NCBI GenBank assembly: GCA_017882445.1
Contig: JADGPK010000010.1
Coordinates: forward strand, 1-64,000
Length of the DNA stretch: 64,000 nucleotides
Source of the DNA: Solirubrobacteraceae bacterium
Lineage (GTDB): Bacteria; Actinomycetota; Thermoleophilia; Solirubrobacterales; Solirubrobacteraceae
Direction of reading: 5' to 3'
This document shows, piece by piece, positions 17,683 through 28,002 of the stretch. Numbering within the stretch: position 1 is the first letter of the stretch; the number at the start of each line of letters is the position of its first letter. The notes under the pieces were generated by a model, which saw nothing but the letters and a program-made list of their open reading frames with translations, was not told the origin of the DNA and did no database searches. Made by a program: the position numbers and the translations under genes.

Positions 17683-17760
17683 AGGTCATTCACGGGTGCC
17701 CGCCGCTGTCCAACGCGACGGGACTCCAACCGCCCCTCCACCAAGAAAGAAGGAACATCC

Positions 17761-19146
17761 ATGGCCGTACTCGAGCGCTCCGAGCTGGAGGCAAGTCCTC
17801 TGGCCGACCTCCACGCGATCGCCAACCAGATCGGTCTAGACGGGTTCAGGCGGCTGCGAAAGGCCGACCTGATCAACGCGATCCTCGGCGAGCCGGCGGG
17901 CTCGGAGGACTCCGACGAGCGTTCCGAGGACTCGCTCGGCGACTCCGAGGACGACGAGGAGGGGCGCCCCGCTCGCCCCCGCAGGCGCCGTTCCTCGCGC
18001 TCGCGCCGCTCGAGCTCCGCCGCGCTGGGCGACTCCGAGGAGAGCTCCGAGAGCGACGAGAGCTCTGAGAGCGACGAGGGCTCCGAGAGCGAGAGCTCCG
18101 AGCGCGCAGCGCCCTCACGCGCCCGGAGCGGTGCCCGCCGCGCAAGGGGCAGGAGCACCCGCGGCGGCGCCGCGGCGGCGGATGCCTCAGCTGCGAGCGT
18201 CGAGCGGGCTGAGCCGGCGGACGCTCTCGAGGCCCCTGGTCGTATCGCGGAGGGCGTTGTCGAGGTGCTGGGCAACGGCTCGGCCTTCCTGCGCGTCGAC
18301 CCGCCTGAGCCCTCTGACGAGGACGTCTACATCTCCGCCGCTCAGGTTCGCCGCTGCGAGCTCGTCTCCGGCGATCGCGTGACCGGCCCGGTGCGCACGC
18401 CCCGCCGCTCGGAGCGCTACTCCTCGCTGGTGCGGATCGACATGATCAACGGTGCGTCGGCGGACACGGTCGCCGACGGCGTGCGCTATGAGGATCTCCC
18501 GGTGGCGTGGCCGAGCGAGCGGCTGGCGCTGGGCTCCAAGGACCCGACGCTGGAGGCGATCGAGTGGCTCACCCCGCTCGGTCGGGGCTCGCGCGCGGTG
18601 ATCGTGGGAGCTCGTCACGCCGGCAAGACCGAGACGCTGCGGCGGCTGCTCGACGCTCTCAGCGGACGTGATGACCTGGAGGTCAGCGTGGTGCTCGCGG
18701 GGGCGAGGCCCGAGGAGATCCAGGAATGGCAGGACGGCGCCGTCCCGCCCGTCGTCGCCGTCAGCTTCGCTGCCTCGGCCGACTCGCAGGGCCAAGCGGT
18801 CGAGCGCGCGATCGACGCGGCCAGGCGCGTGGCCGCGCGCGGAGCTCACGCGCTCGTCCTGATCGACAGCCTCGACGGTCTGAACCCGCACACAGCCCGC
18901 AAGGCGCTCGCCGGCGCCCGCTGCCTGCGCGGCGGCGGCTCGCTCACGGTGATCGCCACCGCCGCGCGCCCGTTCGGCGGCGAGACGACCGTGATCGCGC
19001 TCGACGCCACATTGACGTCGACCGGCCGCCAGCCGATCCTCGACCTCACGAACAGCGCCACGCTCAAGCTCGAGCTGCTGGTCGGCGAGGACGGCGCCGA
19101 GGCGGTCACCAAGGCACGCGCGGCGGCGGTCGAGGCGGCCGGCTAG
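17761..19146 (+). CDS. Rho-like protein lacking key catalytic elements of transcription terminator Rho
   Basis: The 461-residue protein keeps the Rho layout: an N-terminal Rho_N-like helical domain (ASPLADLHAIANQIGLDGFRRLRKADLINAIL), a low-complexity Ser/Glu/Arg insert (about 45-150), an OB-fold RNA-binding region (GVVEVLGNGSAFLRV, then DVYISAAQVRRCELVSGD) and a RecA-like core. In the core the P-loop is VGARHAGKT and Walker B is LVLIDS. Against E. coli Rho, the DERPEE motif with catalytic Glu211 reads AGARPEE, the Q-loop is shortened, the R-loop segment is missing, the Arg-finger position (SGTRKEE) reads SATLKLE, and the protein ends early. It could still bind nucleotide and RNA but may be a non-translocating or regulatory paralogue. 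A good ribosome site (AAGGAAC) precedes the ATG. Whether a normal rho exists elsewhere cannot be seen. Confidence 0.82.
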   Translation: MAVLERSELEASPLADLHAIANQIGLDGFRRLRKADLINAILGEPAGSEDSDERSEDSLGDSEDDEEGRPARPRRRRSSRSRRSSSAALGDSEESSESDESSESDEGSESESSERAAPSRARSGARRARGRSTRGGAAAADASAASVERAEPADALEAPGRIAEGVVEVLGNGSAFLRVDPPEPSDEDVYISAAQVRRCELVSGDRVTGPVRTPRRSERYSSLVRIDMINGASADTVADGVRYEDLPVAWPSERLALGSKDPTLEAIEWLTPLGRGSRAVIVGARHAGKTETLRRLLDALSGRDDLEVSVVLAGARPEEIQEWQDGAVPPVVAVSFAASADSQGQAVERAIDAARRVAARGAHALVLIDSLDGLNPHTARKALAGARCLRGGGSLTVIATAARPFGGETTVIALDATLTSTGRQPILDLTNSATLKLELLVGEDGAEAVTKARAAAVEAAG

Positions 19147-19171: not shown

Positions 19172-19648
19172 TCAGCGGCGGTAGGCGACCCGGCCCCAGG
19201 AGGGCTCGGGGGCGAGTTCTATCGGTTCGCCGCTGCCCGTCGATCCGGGATCGGCGGGCTGCACGTAGGCGAAGGTGGCGGTCTCTTCGTCGAAGGTGAC
19301 GTCGAGCTCGCCCTCCTTGACGCGCTGGTCCAGCCACGCTCCGCGGAAGACCAGACGGCGAAGCCAGTGCACGAGCGAGCGCTCCGCGGGGCCGACGAGC
19401 TCAGGCCAGCAGTCGTTGACGTGCTCGCCCAGGTCTGAGGCGGGCTCGGAGATCTCGCCGTTGACGGCGAGGTTGACCAGGTCTTCGAGCTCCTCGGAGC
19501 CGAGACGCGCGCCGACGAACCCGAGCTTGAGGGCCGCCTGCTCGCAGCGCTCGGAGAAGTCGGTCTCGTTGAACGTGAAGCGCAGCTCGCCGTATTCCAG
19601 GACGAAGTGCTCTCCCGAGTCGTAGTTTTCGCGTCGCGCTGTTTCCAT
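19172..19648 (-). CDS. Hypothetical protein, 158 aa
   Basis: I do not recognise this family. It is an acidic, soluble protein with alternating beta-like and helical stretches (HFVLEYGELRFTFNETDFSERCEQAALKLGFVG) and no signal peptide or membrane segment. It is convergent with the Rho-like gene, with 25 nt between stops, and divergent from the APC permease gene. A -10-like TATGAT on the minus strand (19692-19687) overlaps a plus-strand TACGAT, so the divergent promoters may share a region. The GC-rich codon use is normal for the window, which supports a real gene. Confidence 0.6.
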   Translation of the reverse strand: METARRENYDSGEHFVLEYGELRFTFNETDFSERCEQAALKLGFVGARLGSEELEDLVNLAVNGEISEPASDLGEHVNDCWPELVGPAERSLVHWLRRLVFRGAWLDQRVKEGELDVTFDEETATFAYVQPADPGSTGSGEPIELAPEPSWGRVAYRR

Positions 19649-21716: not shown

Positions 21717-22286
21717 TCAGAAGTGTCCGGTCAGGCCGACCGCGGAGATCCGGCGGTCGTCATCGGGCGCCGGGCGGAGAATCAGGATCTCGCCCGGGGC
21801 GCGCTCGAGCAGCCAGCGCAGGTCCTCGTAGCTGAGGCCCGCGTGCGGGTCTTCGTCGGCCGAGACGATGATGCGGTCGAAGTGCTCCGCGTCCAGCAGC
21901 CTGTGCAGCGCGTCGCGCGCCGACCGGCCGCGCCCGATGCGCGACTCGACCGGGACGCCCTGGGAGGCGACGCGCTGCTCGACCGCCTCGAGCAGTGGCA
22001 TCCCGGTGGCGCACTGGACGGGCAGGGGCGTGTCGAGTGGCAGGGTCATCGGCACGCGCGCCAGAAAGGCGGGCATGATGATCGCGTTCTCAGCCTTGGC
22101 AAGTCGCACGGCGGCCTCGAAGGAGCGCCTCGAGATCGCCTGACCGGTGAACGGCAGCAGGATCCGCCGCACGGGTCGCGGGCGGCTACGGGACGGGAGG
22201 CGCCCATGCGGGGGCAGCCAGTAGCCGGCCGCGATCCCGAGCAGGATGCCGCTCGCGGCGACGATCACGATCGTGTAGACGCTCAT
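21717..22286 (-). CDS. Membrane-anchored universal stress-like protein at end of Kdp operon
   Basis: The start at 22286 overlaps the kdpD stop (ATGA) and gives 189 residues; the longer track start would run into kdpD. One N-terminal membrane helix (TIVIVAASGILLGIAAGYWL) is followed by a Usp-like domain: RRILLPFTGQAISRRSFEAAVRLAKAENAII, then a GRGRSARDALHRLL loop and FDRIIVSADEDP. The final gene of the Kdp cluster, it may be an accessory sensor of potassium or nucleotide state; the function is inferred only from context. Confidence 0.7.
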   Translation of the reverse strand: MSVYTIVIVAASGILLGIAAGYWLPPHGRLPSRSRPRPVRRILLPFTGQAISRRSFEAAVRLAKAENAIIMPAFLARVPMTLPLDTPLPVQCATGMPLLEAVEQRVASQGVPVESRIGRGRSARDALHRLLDAEHFDRIIVSADEDPHAGLSYEDLRWLLERAPGEILILRPAPDDDRRISAVGLTGHF

Positions 22287-23455
22287 GGTTTCTCGCTGCC
22301 GTGACGCTGGGAGCGGTCGGCCACGATGCGCACGTCGACGCCCGGGAGCTGCTCCATCAGTCGCTGGGCGAGCGGCACGCGCAGGCGCGCGACGCCGCGC
22401 GCGGGGCGTGAGCGCCCGATCACGATGTAGGTGCTCCCGCGGCGTGAGGCCACCTCCGCGACCTTTGCCGTGACGTCGTCGGACTCCTCCACGAGCATCG
22501 TCGCGCCGAGCACCGAGGCGAGCTGCTGCAGGGCGGCGAGCGAGCGCTGATGATCGTCTGAGAGCGTCTGCCCCGGCCCGCGTACCCACAGCAGGTCGAG
22601 GTCGGCACCGAGGCGCTGGGCTGAGCGCCAGGCGCGCCGCACGAGGCGCTGCGCGCCCGGATAGGGCTCGACAAGCGCGAGCAGGCGCTCGCCCACGGCT
22701 CCCGCCGCGTCAGAGGCGAGGCTTTCCTCGCGCGAGCCGACGAGCTCGGTCGTCAGGCGCTTGGCGCCGATTTCCTCGGCGACCTGTCGCAGGGCGATCT
22801 CGCGCAGCGCGGCCAGGTTCTCGATGCGAAAGAAGTTGTTCAGGGCCGCGTCGATGCGCTCGAGCGGATACACGTTCCCGGCTCGCAGGCGGTCGAGCAG
22901 CGCCTCGGGTGTGATGTCGATCAGCACGACCTCGTCGGCCCGCCCGAGGATCGCGTCCGGGATCGTCTCGCGCACACGGATGCCGCTGAGCTCAGTGATG
23001 CGGTCGTTGAGTGACTCGAGGTGCTGGACGTTGAGCGTCGAGAGGACATCGATGCCGGCCGCGAGGATGTCCTCGACGTCTTCGTAGCGCTTGACGTGCT
23101 CGAGCCCGGGAGCGTTGGTGTGGGCGAGCTCATCCACCAGGCACAGCTCGGGAGCGCGGCGCAGGATCGCCTGCAGGTCCATCTCCTCGAGTTCCGCCTG
23201 CCGGTAGCTCACGCGCACGCGCGGAACCATCGGCAGGCCCTCGGCGAGCCTGGCGGTCGCCGGGCGGCCGTGGGTCTCGAGCAGCCCGATCACGACATCC
23301 CTGCCCGCCTCCTGTTCTGCGTGCCCCTCGAGCAGCATCCGGTAGGTCTTGCCGACTCCTGCGGCCATGCCGAGGAAGAGCCTCATGTGACCGCGGCGCC
23401 GGTCCGGCTGCGCCGAGGCGGCAGCAGGACTGTCGGGGTTGGCCGCGCTGCTCAT
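22283..23455 (-). CDS. KdpD N-terminal sensor protein without kinase domain
   Basis: The 390-residue protein matches the cytoplasmic N-terminal half of KdpD: Walker A-like [27 protein letters not shown], and the [19 protein letters not shown] stretch, followed by a Usp-like domain (about 250-390). There are no membrane helices, no DUF4118, no HisKA and no HATPase, which are found in a separate gene at 30115-31608. In E. coli this half modulates kinase/phosphatase balance in response to K+ and ATP, and in some species the Usp part binds c-di-AMP. It overlaps kdpB (ATGA) and the downstream usp gene (ATGA). It is complete at both ends, so this looks like a natural split rather than a truncation. 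Confidence 0.9.
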
Positions 23456-25548
23456 CCTCCGAGCAGATTGTGCACGATCAGGTCGATCAGCTTGATCCCG
23501 ATAAACGGGGCGATGATGCCGCCGAGCCCATACATCAGGAGGTTGCGCCGCAGCAGGGCGCTGGCGCCGATCGGGCGGTAGCGCACGCCCCGCAGCGACA
23601 GCGGGATCAGCAGCGGGATCACGAGCGCGTTGAAGATGATCGCCGAGACGATCGCCGAGCGGGGCGTGCCGAGGCCCATGATGTTGAGCACGTGCAGCGG
23701 TCCCTTTGATTCGTGCCCGCCCACCCCGCCGGCCGCATACGTGGCGATGAACACGGCCGGCAGGATCGCGAAGTACTTGGCGATGTCATTGGCGATCGAG
23801 AAGGTCGTCAGGGCGCCGCGCGTGATCAGCAGCTGCTTGCCCACCTCCACGATCTCGATCAGCTTCGTCGGGTTGGAGTCCAGGTCGACCATGTTGCCCG
23901 CCTCGCGTGCGGCCTGGGTGCCGGTGTTCATCGCCACGCCGACGTCGGCCTGCGCCAGCGCCGGCGCGTCGTTGGTGCCGTCGCCCGTCATCGCCACCAG
24001 CCGGCCATCCTGTTGTTCTTTGCGGATCAGCGCCAGCTTCGCCTCCGGGGTCGCTTCGGCGAGGAAGTCATCCACGCCGGACTCCTCGGCGATCTTGGCG
24101 GCCGTCAGGCGGTTGTCGCCAGTCACCATCACCGTCTTGATGCCCATCGCGCGCAGCTGGTCGAAACGAACGCGCATGCCCTCCTTGATCGTGTCCTTGA
24201 GGTAGATCACGCCGAGCACCTGACTGTCACGCGAGACGGCGAGCGGCGTGCCTCCCTCCCGGCCGATGCGGTCGAGCTGTGCCTGCAGCTCCGGCGGAGG
24301 GGAGCCGCCCTCGCGCGTGACCAGCTCGATGATCGCGTCGCCGGCGCCCTTGCGCAGCTGCCGGCCGTCGAAGTCCACGCCGCTCATCCGCGTCTGCGCG
24401 GTGAAGGGCACGAACTCGGCGTGCAGCGTCGCCATGTCGTGCTCGCGGATGCCGTACTGCTTGGCCAGCACAACGATCGAGCGGCCCTCGGGGGTCTCGT
24501 CCGCGAGCGAGGACAGCTGCGCCGCCTCGGCGAGCTCGGCCTCGGGCACGCCCGGCATCGGGATGAACTCAGAGGCGAGCCGGTTGCCGATCGTGATCGT
24601 GCCGGTCTTGTCGAGCAGCAGCACGTCGACATCGCCCGAGGCCTCCACAGCTCGGCCCGAAAGCGCGAGCACGTTGCGGCGCACGAGACGGTCCATGCCG
24701 GCGATCCCGATCGCCGAGAGCAACGCGCCGATCGTCGTCGGGATCAGCGCGACCAGCAATGCGATCAGCGTCGTCTCGGAGATCGAGGTGCCGGCGAACA
24801 GGCCGAACGGGCGCAGCGTCGCCACGACGATCATGAAGATCAGCGTCAGCGCGGCGAGCAGGATGTTGAGCGCGATCTCGTTCGGTGTCTTGCGCCGCTC
24901 GGCTCCCTCGACGAGCGCGATCATGCGATCCATGAAGGACTGGCCGGGCTCCTGTGTGATTTCGACGACGATTCGGTCGGAGGTCACCCGCGTGCCGCCC
25001 GTGACCGCGCTGCGGTCGCCGCCGGACTCGCGGATCACGGGCGCGGACTCGCCGGTGATCGCCGACTCGTCGACCGTGGCGATCCCCTCGATCACGGTCC
25101 CGTCGCCGGGGATCAGCTCGCCGGCCTCCACGACGACGACGTCTCCCCGCGTGAGATCCGAGGCGGCCCTCGTGGAGCCGTCGCGCATCGTGGCGACCGT
25201 CTCCTTGCGCATGTTGCGCAGCGTGTCCGCCTGCGCGCGCCCGCGACCCTCGGCGAACGCCTCGGCCATGTTCGCGAACACGACCGTCAGCCACAGCCAG
25301 ATCGCGATCAGGAACGTGTACCAGGCAGGCTCGTTCCCGCCGCCGAGCGGCTTGCCGCCGAAGACCTGGATCAGCCACGTCACCGTCGTGATGACCGAGC
25401 CGACCTCCACCACGAACATCACCGGGTTGCGGATCTGCACGCGCGGGTCGAGCTTCTTGAAACTGTCGATCAGCGCACGCACGACGATGTCGTGCTTGAA
25501 CAGCGAGATCGCCTGGCGCTCCTGTGTCCCGTGCATTTGCGCTGACAT
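23452..25548 (-). CDS. kdpB: Potassium-transporting P-type ATPase, ATP-binding subunit KdpB
   Basis: The 698-residue protein shows the P-type ATPase motifs in order: actuator loop [15 protein letters not shown], phosphorylation site [13 protein letters not shown], nucleotide-binding KGAGDAII region, and the hinge [31 protein letters not shown]. The length is as expected for KdpB. It hydrolyses ATP to drive K+ uptake through KdpA at micromolar external K+. Its start overlaps the kdpC stop by 1 nt (TGATG), and its stop overlaps the next gene. Here it follows kdpC, the reverse of the usual A-B-C order. Confidence 0.97.
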
Positions 25549-26210
25549 CAGCCTTTCCCTCCTGTGAGGCGGTCGAGGGCGAGGTTGAGCTCGAGCACGT
25601 TCACGCCTTCCTCGCCGGAAAAGCCGAGCGCGCGGCCGGACGTGTACTTCGCGATCAGGCCGTCGACGACGCTCAGCGCGAGCTGCCGCTTGGCCGCGAC
25701 GCGATGGGCCTGGATCCAGGCGTCGGCCTGAGAGATTTCGGGGTCCAGGTTCGAGGCCGAGGTGTTGACGGCGTCGACCGGGATCTGGGCGGAGGTCAGG
25801 CTCGGGTCATACGGCTTCTCCATTTCCAGATAGGCCTTGATGTTTTCTTCGTCCGCTTCCTTGGTCTTCACGCTGTTCGGCCCGCGGTTGGAGAAGGTGC
25901 TGGCAGCGGCGTTGTCCGCTCCGCCTTCGGTGACCGAGGGACGGCTCTGGAAGTAGCGCGGGTCCGCTTCGGTCACCACCACGCCCTTCACTTCCTTGGG
26001 CTTGCCATTCTTTTCGAGCACAGGCGTGGCGAAGCTCTGGCCGATGATCCTCGAGCCGACGAGCTTGCCGCCGACGTAGACCTTCTGTCCGTTGGCGTTG
26101 CCGGGGAAGGCGACCTGGCTTACGCCCCAGATTGCCAGCGGGTAGACGAGCCCGAGCAGGATCGTCATGACGACGATGCCGATCACCGATGTGACGATGT
26201 CGCGGCGCAT
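25548..26210 (-). CDS. kdpC: Potassium-transporting ATPase subunit KdpC
   Basis: The 220-residue protein has one N-terminal membrane helix ([23 protein letters not shown]) and the family signatures RIIGQSF, YFQSRPS and [15 protein letters not shown]. KdpC stabilises the KdpFABC complex and raises its affinity for ATP. It lies between kdpA (1 nt gap) and kdpB (1 nt overlap), so the gene order is A-C-B. The periplasmic part is somewhat longer than in E. coli, with a charged insert around residues 80-125. Confidence 0.96.
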
Positions 26211-26211
26211 G

Positions 26212-28002
26212 TCAGTAGAGGTGTCCCGTCAGGCCCTGCACGATCGGTCCGAGCAGCAGCGCGGGGAAGAAGGTGAGCGCGCCGACGAGCACGACCACGC
26301 CGATCAGCAGGATTGCGAACGTGGTGTTGTCGGTGCGCATCGTGCCGAGGCCCGCCGGCGTCACCCGCTTGCCGGCCAGAGCGCCGGCGACGGCTAGAGC
26401 GAACAGGATTGGCGCGTAGCGCGCGAAGAGCATGTCGAAGCCGCCGAGCAGGTCGGCGAACGTGACGCCGTGGGAGCCGACGTTGCCGGCGTTCGGCTGG
26501 ACGAAGCCGGTGTAGCCGGCGAAGGCGGAGCCGTTGTTGTTGGCCTGCGAGAGGTAGGCGTAGAAGGTCTCCGAGAAGCCCTGTGGAGTGTTCGCGCCGG
26601 CTTTGGAGAGCGCCACTTCAGAGATCGACTTGCGTCCGGCGCTGCTGGCGGTAGCCATCGCCGTGCAGAACAGCGCCGCCAGCGGCGTGACCAGGATGCC
26701 GAGGCCGGCGAGCTTGATCTCCCTGGCCTCGAGCTTCTTGCCGAGCCACTCGGGTGTGCGTCCGACCATGAGGCCGCCGATGAAGACGGCCAGTAGGACG
26801 TAGAGCAGCATCGAGTACAGCCCGGTGCCCGTGCCGCCGAAGATGACCTCGCTCGCCGACAGGTTGGCGAAGGGGACGGCCCCGCCGATGCCTGTGAAGG
26901 ACTCGATCGCGCTGTTGACCGCCCCGCAGGAGGTCACGGTGGTGACCACATCGAACAGCGCGGAGCCGGCTATCCCGAAGCGCTGCTCCTTGCCTTCCAT
27001 GTTGCCGCCGGTGGAGCCCAAGATCACGTGCGTGTGCAGACCGGCGGCGTGCTGGGCCGGTGAGCCATGGGCCTCGGCGATGTAGGCGACCGACACGGCG
27101 CCGAGGAACATCACCATCATCACGCCGTAGATCGCGTAGCCCTGGCGGCGGTTGCCGGTCATACGCCCGTACATGAACACGAGCGCCGCGGGGATGATCA
27201 GCACGAGCAGCATCTCGAAGAAGTTCGTGAAGGCTGTCGGGTTCTCGAACGGGTGTGCCGAGTTGGTGTTGAAGAAGCCGCCGCCGTTGGTGCCGAGCTC
27301 CTTGATCACCTCTTGTGAGGCGACCGGACCCATCGCGATCGACTGCGTGAGGCCCGTAACGGTGTGCGCGGTCAGGTAGCTCGTGAAGTTGTCGATCACG
27401 CCCTGGGAGACGAGCACGAGCGCCCCGACGGCCGAGATCGGCGCGAGCACATAGAGGATCGTGCGCACGAGGTCCTGCCAGAAGTTGCCGATGCCCTTGC
27501 CCGAGCGCGAGACGATCCCACGCACGAGCGCAACCGCCACGACGATGCCGACGCCGGCCGACAGCCAGTTCTGCACGGTCAGCCCGATCATCTGGCTGAG
27601 GTAGCTCATCGTCATCTCGCCGCCGTAGTACTGCCAGTTCGTGTTCGTGAGGAACGACGAGGTGGTGTTGAACGTCACGTTCCACGGCGCCGAGTGGTAG
27701 CCGAGCGGGTTGAGCGCATGCGGCACGAAGAACGCGTTCTGCGTGCGCAGGATCACGTACAGCAGCAGCCATCCCGCGAGCGAGAAGACGATCAGGCTTT
27801 TCGCGTACGCCTTCCACTCCTGCTCGCGCTCGGGGTCAACCCGCAGCAGTTTGTAGAGGAAGCGCTCGGGCCCTCCGAGGATTGGAGTGAGCAGTACCCG
27901 TTGGCCGGTGTAGACCCTGGCCATGTACCGGCCGAGCGGCAGGGCGAGCGCCGTCAGGACGACAGCGAAGAGGATGATCGTGAGCCAGCCGGAGAAGGTC
28001 AC
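26212..28002 (-). CDS. kdpA: Potassium-transporting ATPase, channel-like subunit KdpA
   Basis: The 596-residue membrane protein has the four selectivity-filter loops of KdpA: TTSSFLTNTNWQ, GTNGGGFFNTNSAHPFENP, TSCGAVNSAIESFTGIGG and NNNGSAFAG. It binds and conducts K+ inward as part of the KdpFABC pump. The GTG start shares one base with the TAG stop of kdpF just upstream, indicating coupled translation. The length and loop content are normal. Confidence 0.97.
   Translation of the reverse strand: MTFSGWLTIILFAVVLTALALPLGRYMARVYTGQRVLLTPILGGPERFLYKLLRVDPEREQEWKAYAKSLIVFSLAGWLLLYVILRTQNAFFVPHALNPLGYHSAPWNVTFNTTSSFLTNTNWQYYGGEMTMSYLSQMIGLTVQNWLSAGVGIVVAVALVRGIVSRSGKGIGNFWQDLVRTILYVLAPISAVGALVLVSQGVIDNFTSYLTAHTVTGLTQSIAMGPVASQEVIKELGTNGGGFFNTNSAHPFENPTAFTNFFEMLLVLIIPAALVFMYGRMTGNRRQGYAIYGVMMVMFLGAVSVAYIAEAHGSPAQHAAGLHTHVILGSTGGNMEGKEQRFGIAGSALFDVVTTVTSCGAVNSAIESFTGIGGAVPFANLSASEVIFGGTGTGLYSMLLYVLLAVFIGGLMVGRTPEWLGKKLEAREIKLAGLGILVTPLAALFCTAMATASSAGRKSISEVALSKAGANTPQGFSETFYAYLSQANNNGSAFAGYTGFVQPNAGNVGSHGVTFADLLGGFDMLFARYAPILFALAVAGALAGKRVTPAGLGTMRTDNTTFAILLIGVVVLVGALTFFPALLLGPIVQGLTGHLY

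Follow-up and report, generated by a model that had tools for sequence, protein, structure and literature searches.

A Rho protein of the Solirubrobacterales with predicted loss of its RNA-pulling motor

Introduction

Rho is commonly described as a helicase, a motor that pulls RNA from RNA polymerase; structural work puts binding and allostery first. The present analysis concerns a Rho-like protein encoded in a 64,000-nucleotide stretch of DNA from a Solirubrobacteraceae bacterium (assembly GCA_017882445.1, contig JADGPK010000010.1, positions 1 to 64,000; hereafter the window), in which the loss of this motor is strongly supported by sequence comparison. The best described relative is the Rho of Escherichia coli, whose residue numbering is used throughout. 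Its primary RNA binding needs Tyr80, and its secondary RNA site is formed by the Q-loop (residues 278–290) and the R-loop (residues 322–326) (PMC1950744). At the ATPase site Glu211 is catalytic, Arg212 and Arg366 hold the γ-phosphate, and Lys181 also contacts it (PMC11718236, PMC8828861). A 'stand-by' route of Rho is thought to act through allostery and not through the motor (PMC8964686), and a static role on RNA or RNA polymerase is therefore conceivable. No description of a degenerate or absent Rho in the order Solirubrobacterales was found in the open-access literature, subscription journals lying outside the search.

Results and discussion

Motor residues are lost and binding residues are kept

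The gene is preceded by a Shine-Dalgarno-like AAGGA placed 6 nucleotides upstream of its ATG (Table 1). Both N-terminal domains of the product score above their Pfam cut-offs (Rho_N, PF07498, 37.3 bits against 24.9; the OB-fold domain Rho_RNA_bind, PF07497, 75.8 bits against 27), and the initial annotation, made from the letters and translations alone, was right to describe these RNA-binding parts as preserved around a long Ser/Glu/Arg insert. The score of the TIGR00767 'rho' equivalog is not reached (168.9 bits against a cut-off of 509.45), only positions 3–266 of the 415 in that model being covered. An AlphaFold model has a pLDDT (predicted local distance difference test) of at least 90 for 338 of the 461 residues, and Rho structures are its best matches.

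The protein was aligned with E. coli Rho and with 17 canonical Rhos of the same class, which are intact over the aligned regions, although one ends at a contig edge. In place of DER it has GAR, so that the catalytic Glu211 has become Ala315; SGTRKEE has become SATLKLE, with Leu435 where the Arg finger Arg366 should be; and about 22 residues of the Q-loop region and about 14 of the R-loop region are gone. The replacements and the two deletions agree with the first reading of the sequence. Lys181 is also lost from the P-loop region (replaced by R, H, G or A), and Arg353 likewise has no equivalent. The P-loop and Walker B motif were correctly reported as kept: GKT (Lys184, Thr185) and the Walker B Asp265 are present, as are Arg212 and the primary-site residues R66, D78, Y80, R102, E108 and Y110. 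The reported absence of the C-terminal helices holds only in part, since the last ones are missing but one helix (residues 437–460) is still present in the model.

These changes are not peculiar to one genome. A profile of the window's family matched 80 named Solirubrobacteraceae loci, among them isolates of Solirubrobacter, Conexibacter, Patulibacter and Paraconexibacter and complete chromosomes, and Glu211, Arg366, the Q-loop and the R-loop are absent from all 80. The Glu211 position is occupied by V, A or I throughout and the Arg366 position is never Arg, while GK[ST] is retained in 78 of the 80 loci and Asp265, Tyr80 and Glu108 in every one. Identical losses were found in 27 of 27 family members taken from whole genomes, which excludes chance as well as sequencing error. 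Given the established roles of the missing loops and catalytic residues, translocation of RNA by this protein is very unlikely, and the losses predict that RNA-dependent ATPase, helicase and termination activities would be absent. The OB fold is likely still to bind RNA, as is the protein of the window's family to bind ATP.

The degenerate protein is the only Rho of the genome

Apart from this protein, Rho models match only ATP synthase subunits and a flagellar-type ATPase in the genome of origin (94.9% complete), so that the missing parts are supplied neither by a second Rho nor by a separate fragment of one; nor do the missing residues occur elsewhere in the chain. Nothing in 61 relatives exceeds the Rho cut-off, and their RNA-binding domain is matched a single time per genome. 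Neither the genome of origin nor any other genome sampled from the order yielded a canonical Rho; each has at most one Rho-type protein, which is always degenerate. The Rho model itself works, since Rho scores above cut-off in 329 of 397 genomes sampled across the phylum.

An ordinary rho, inherited in place and then decayed

At canonical loci of the class, rho follows genes for a metallophosphoesterase, c10, a 2-phosphoglycerate-kinase-like protein and sometimes a transaldolase-like protein. In families f2 and f4 the degenerate gene has exactly this order upstream, with c1 after it. The window's family has kept c1 downstream, but glpD and folP now stand on the upstream side. In a maximum-likelihood tree all 48 degenerate sequences form one clade (support 100/100), apart from the canonical Rhos of the class (99/92). 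Within the degenerate clade f3 branches first, followed by the separation of f1 from f2 plus f4. Because the gene order is shared and the degenerate sequences form a single clade, the gene is orthologous to rho: it is the ordinary rho of the class, inherited in place and then decayed.

Parsimony on this tree assigns one change each to the loss of the Q-loop, the R-loop and Arg366, two to Glu211 and three to Lys184, while Asp265 was never lost, which indicates that the RNA-pulling parts probably went first and the residues of hydrolysis later and separately. A single loss of both loops and the Arg finger at the base of the Solirubrobacterales is strongly supported by the sequences; their comparison also supports a later, independent loss of Lys184 in three families and of Glu211 in the branch of the window. 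The Walker A GK is lost in families f2, f3 and f4. In f3 Glu211 is kept in 8 of 9 sequences and Lys184 is lost, the reverse of the window's family. The deletion in f3 covers 17 residues as against 22 in the other families, a gap that may reflect either further trimming or, possibly, an independent deletion.

The ratio of nonsynonymous to synonymous substitution rates (dN/dS) was estimated by the method of Nei and Gojobori. Over nine close pairs of degenerate sequences it is 0.05–0.38 for the OB fold and core, 0.04–0.35 for Rho_N and 0.27–0.65 for the linker, compared with mostly 0.03–0.12, and up to 0.35, for canonical pairs. Degenerate Rho is therefore constrained, but less so than canonical Rho; with dN/dS well below 1, Rho_N and the core are under purifying selection.

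Decay has gone further in two genera of f3, g41 and g42, where no match to the RNA-binding domain model is found, yet a stub of 230–290 amino acids stands at the rho locus beside c1. In the stub Rho_N is joined by an Arg-rich linker to a shortened core, in which PEE...W and VDSL remain; the OB domain and P-loop are gone. Its core is modelled as a compact alpha/beta fold with pLDDT of at least 90 at 137 residues, and its dN/dS is 0.18–0.51. The stubs, having no OB fold, argue for an importance of Rho_N, linker and core that goes beyond contact with RNA. Elsewhere in the class, these searches found no Rho in families f5, f7, f10 and f11. The genomes concerned are high in GC and nearly complete, some, such as G066 and G068, being single contigs.

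Table 1. Positions in the window of the degenerate rho gene, its parts and its neighbour, with related loci in other genomes
Feature	Position	Strand	Basis
Motorless Rho (pseudo-Rho), 461 amino acids, ATG start	17761..19146	+	Open reading frame and translation, Pfam/NCBIfam matches, alignment, AlphaFold model
Shine-Dalgarno-like AAGGA	17750..17754	+	Sequence
Rho_N domain, residues 8–43	17782..17889	+	PF07498, E 2.6e-09; dN/dS as in text
Ser/Glu/Arg-rich disordered linker, residues 44–160	17890..18240	+	pLDDT < 50 over most; dN/dS as in text
OB-fold RNA-binding domain, residues 164–234; R66/D78/Y80/R102/E108/Y110 equivalents kept	18250..18462	+	PF07497, E 2.3e-21; residue table
RecA-like core, shortened, residues 262–461	18544..19143	+	pLDDT >= 90; Foldseek best hit E. 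coli Rho 3ice
Walker A GARHAGKT, residues 283–290; Lys184 kept, Lys181 lost	18607..18630	+	Alignment
GARPEE, residues 314–319; Glu211 to Ala, Arg valve R212 and PEE kept	18700..18717	+	Alignment
Walker B VLIDS; D369 equivalent to Asp265	18856..18870	+	Unchanged in all 48 degenerate sequences of the tree
Junction; Q-loop region (about E. coli 272–293) missing	18883..18888	+	Alignment
Junction; R-loop region (about E. coli 321–334) missing	18964..18969	+	Alignment
SATLKLE segment; Arg finger R366 to Leu435	19054..19077	+	Alignment
Convergent conserved 158-amino-acid protein c1	19172..19648	-	Neighbour analysis
Stub Rho loci L186-L189, L236-L242 (genomes G224, G228, G234, G250, G275, G297, G311)			Family f3
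Degenerate Rho loci of f36: L243, L245, L246, L248 (genomes G470, G557, G547, G357)			

Proposed function and alternatives

We favour, with reasonable though not high confidence, the view that this protein, the only Rho of its cell, is a non-translocating, ATP-bound factor that binds RNA or RNA polymerase; the non-motor, RNA-binding Rho suggested at the outset agrees with the pattern of residues across the family and with purifying selection. The loss of the motor is read from sequence, and from it we infer the cellular role. The loss of the secondary RNA site and of the trans-acting Arg finger at the base of the order would have abolished translocation and the hydrolysis of ATP that is coupled to RNA. 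A protein that lacks Glu211 but keeps GK[ST], Arg212 and Asp265, as in the window's family, is expected to bind ATP without hydrolysing it. The conserved primary site of the OB fold may still grip pyrimidine-rich, C-containing RNA, while Rho_N, the basic linker and the folded core would hold a partner, most plausibly the nascent RNA on an elongation complex; NusG is present in the genome. Such a static, ATP-bound factor could act in pausing, in protection or in the marking of antisense transcripts, instead of as a pulling terminator. Several observations weigh against this proposal. The window's family has Ser in place of Phe62 at the RNA site, the residues that contact RNA are gone from the OB fold of f4, and g41 and g42 have lost the whole OB domain together with the P-loop, so that RNA binding at the primary site cannot be the function of Rho across the entire order. 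Intrinsic terminators, purine bias and the excess of C over G after stop codons, taken as possible marks of lost termination, gave no usable difference between genomes with canonical, degenerate or no Rho, a comparison which, with its small sample and crude gene caller, is uninformative and counts as evidence neither way.

A terminator without a motor, which would ride RNA polymerase in the stand-by mode and inactivate it allosterically when its OB domains catch a C-rich transcript, would fit the retained primary RNA site and folded core, and for the Rho of E. coli a route that does not depend on translocation has been put forward (PMC8964686; also, to judge from its title as cited in PMC7819879, by Said et al.). 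We regard it as unlikely, though deserving of serious attention: RNA release could not be rescued in E. coli Q-loop mutants (PMC1950744), and neither a rut-like nor a compensating terminator signal could be demonstrated with the same small sample and crude gene caller. Rather less probable, and already disfavoured, is that the gene is a dying relic, dispensable in the class, without any remaining specific function and on its way to disappearance. The serial decay from full length through loss of the loops to loss of the OB fold, and the complete absence of Rho from f5, f7, f10 and f11, are what such a process would leave behind; but dN/dS lies well below 1 in Rho_N and core, and even in the stub core, the gene is retained in nearly all genomes of four families, and GK[ST] persists in nearly all loci of the window's family within a fold modelled at high confidence.

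The other explanations fare much worse. An active motor with substitute catalytic residues is very improbable: the Walker A Lys, Arg212 and the Walker B Asp are indeed retained in the window's family, but none of the 80 loci has the catalytic Glu, the Arg finger or either loop of the RNA channel, and sister families of the same architecture lack Walker A itself. The initial annotation also suggested a Rho partner or an inhibitor, a typical use of pseudoenzymes, which would need a canonical Rho beside it in the cell; with one Rho-type match per genome and no canonical Rho in any sampled genome of the order, there is nothing for it to act on, and the idea is barely credible. As for error in sequencing or assembly, the window does come from a fragmented draft genome of 234 contigs, but 80 independent loci share these losses, among them type strains and the complete chromosomes of Paraconexibacter antarcticus and Conexibacter sp. 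S30A1, which leaves this a negligible chance.

A parallel in another class

Four genomes of f36, an actinobacterial family of a different class, also have a degenerate Rho as their sole Rho. Lys184 is lost in all four and Glu211 in two, and Asp265 has become His in one; the OB fold is kept and, unlike in the window's protein, the Q- and R-loops are largely kept in several. In a quick tree f36 falls next to the degenerate clade, on long branches and weakly supported, but on the grounds of taxonomy and of the different residues lost this decay is probably an independent convergence. Separately, locus L244 (genome G561, family f70) encodes a Rho with Walker A and DER intact, in which the Arg finger is His (SGTHNEE) and the Q-loop is changed.

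It is tempting to suggest that a whole order of soil bacteria uses Rho purely by binding, as a static, ATP-bound clamp on nascent RNA or RNA polymerase, and that the motor was lost, with the RNA-binding front retained, at least twice in the Actinomycetota, a proposal of which we are rather more doubtful than confident. If true, the non-motor interactions of Rho would be a selectable function of their own.

Implications

Canonical sisters, a loop-less and apparently ATPase-dead order, an OB-less stub in two genera and absence elsewhere together make up what appears to be a natural series separating motor from binding, and one in which the action of a Rho deprived of its motor can be put to the test. 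It raises the question of how high-GC bacteria without a functional Rho motor end their transcripts and curb antisense transcription. Surveys that rely on domain matches should not count the genomes of this order as 'Rho-positive'.

Neighbouring genes

The order has four families, and in each of them the convergent gene c1 adjoins rho. Its product is highly conserved, has no Pfam or NCBIfam match, and is encoded by 209 of the 299 class genomes. Since many of these have no Rho, a role for c1 as a dedicated partner of Rho is ruled out. Potassium-transport genes at 22283–28002 (- strand) encode KdpA, KdpB and a KdpD-like non-kinase sensor from which the histidine kinase part is absent.

Comparison with known Rho proteins

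NF041509 (paralog_Rho2) is, like the window's protein, a second kind of protein derived from Rho, and its model matches the OB fold and core; the match (120.1 bits) is far below the cut-off of 628, and such a paralogue would stand beside a canonical Rho, whereas here there is none and the protein is the sole Rho. The Rho of Mycobacterium tuberculosis (7oqh) is likewise actinobacterial and has a long low-complexity N-terminal insert, and its enzyme activity is reportedly weak (PMC8828861), but it is a motor with every catalytic residue and loop in place, which the window's protein is predicted not to be. Closest remains canonical Rho (TIGR00767 / NF006886; E. coli, PDB 3ice), with which the protein shares the domain order Rho_N, OB fold and RecA-like core, the gene neighbourhood of class rho and the fold (Foldseek E 5.9e-27 for the modelled core), and from which it differs in having neither Glu211, Arg366, Q-loop, R-loop nor the last C-terminal helices.
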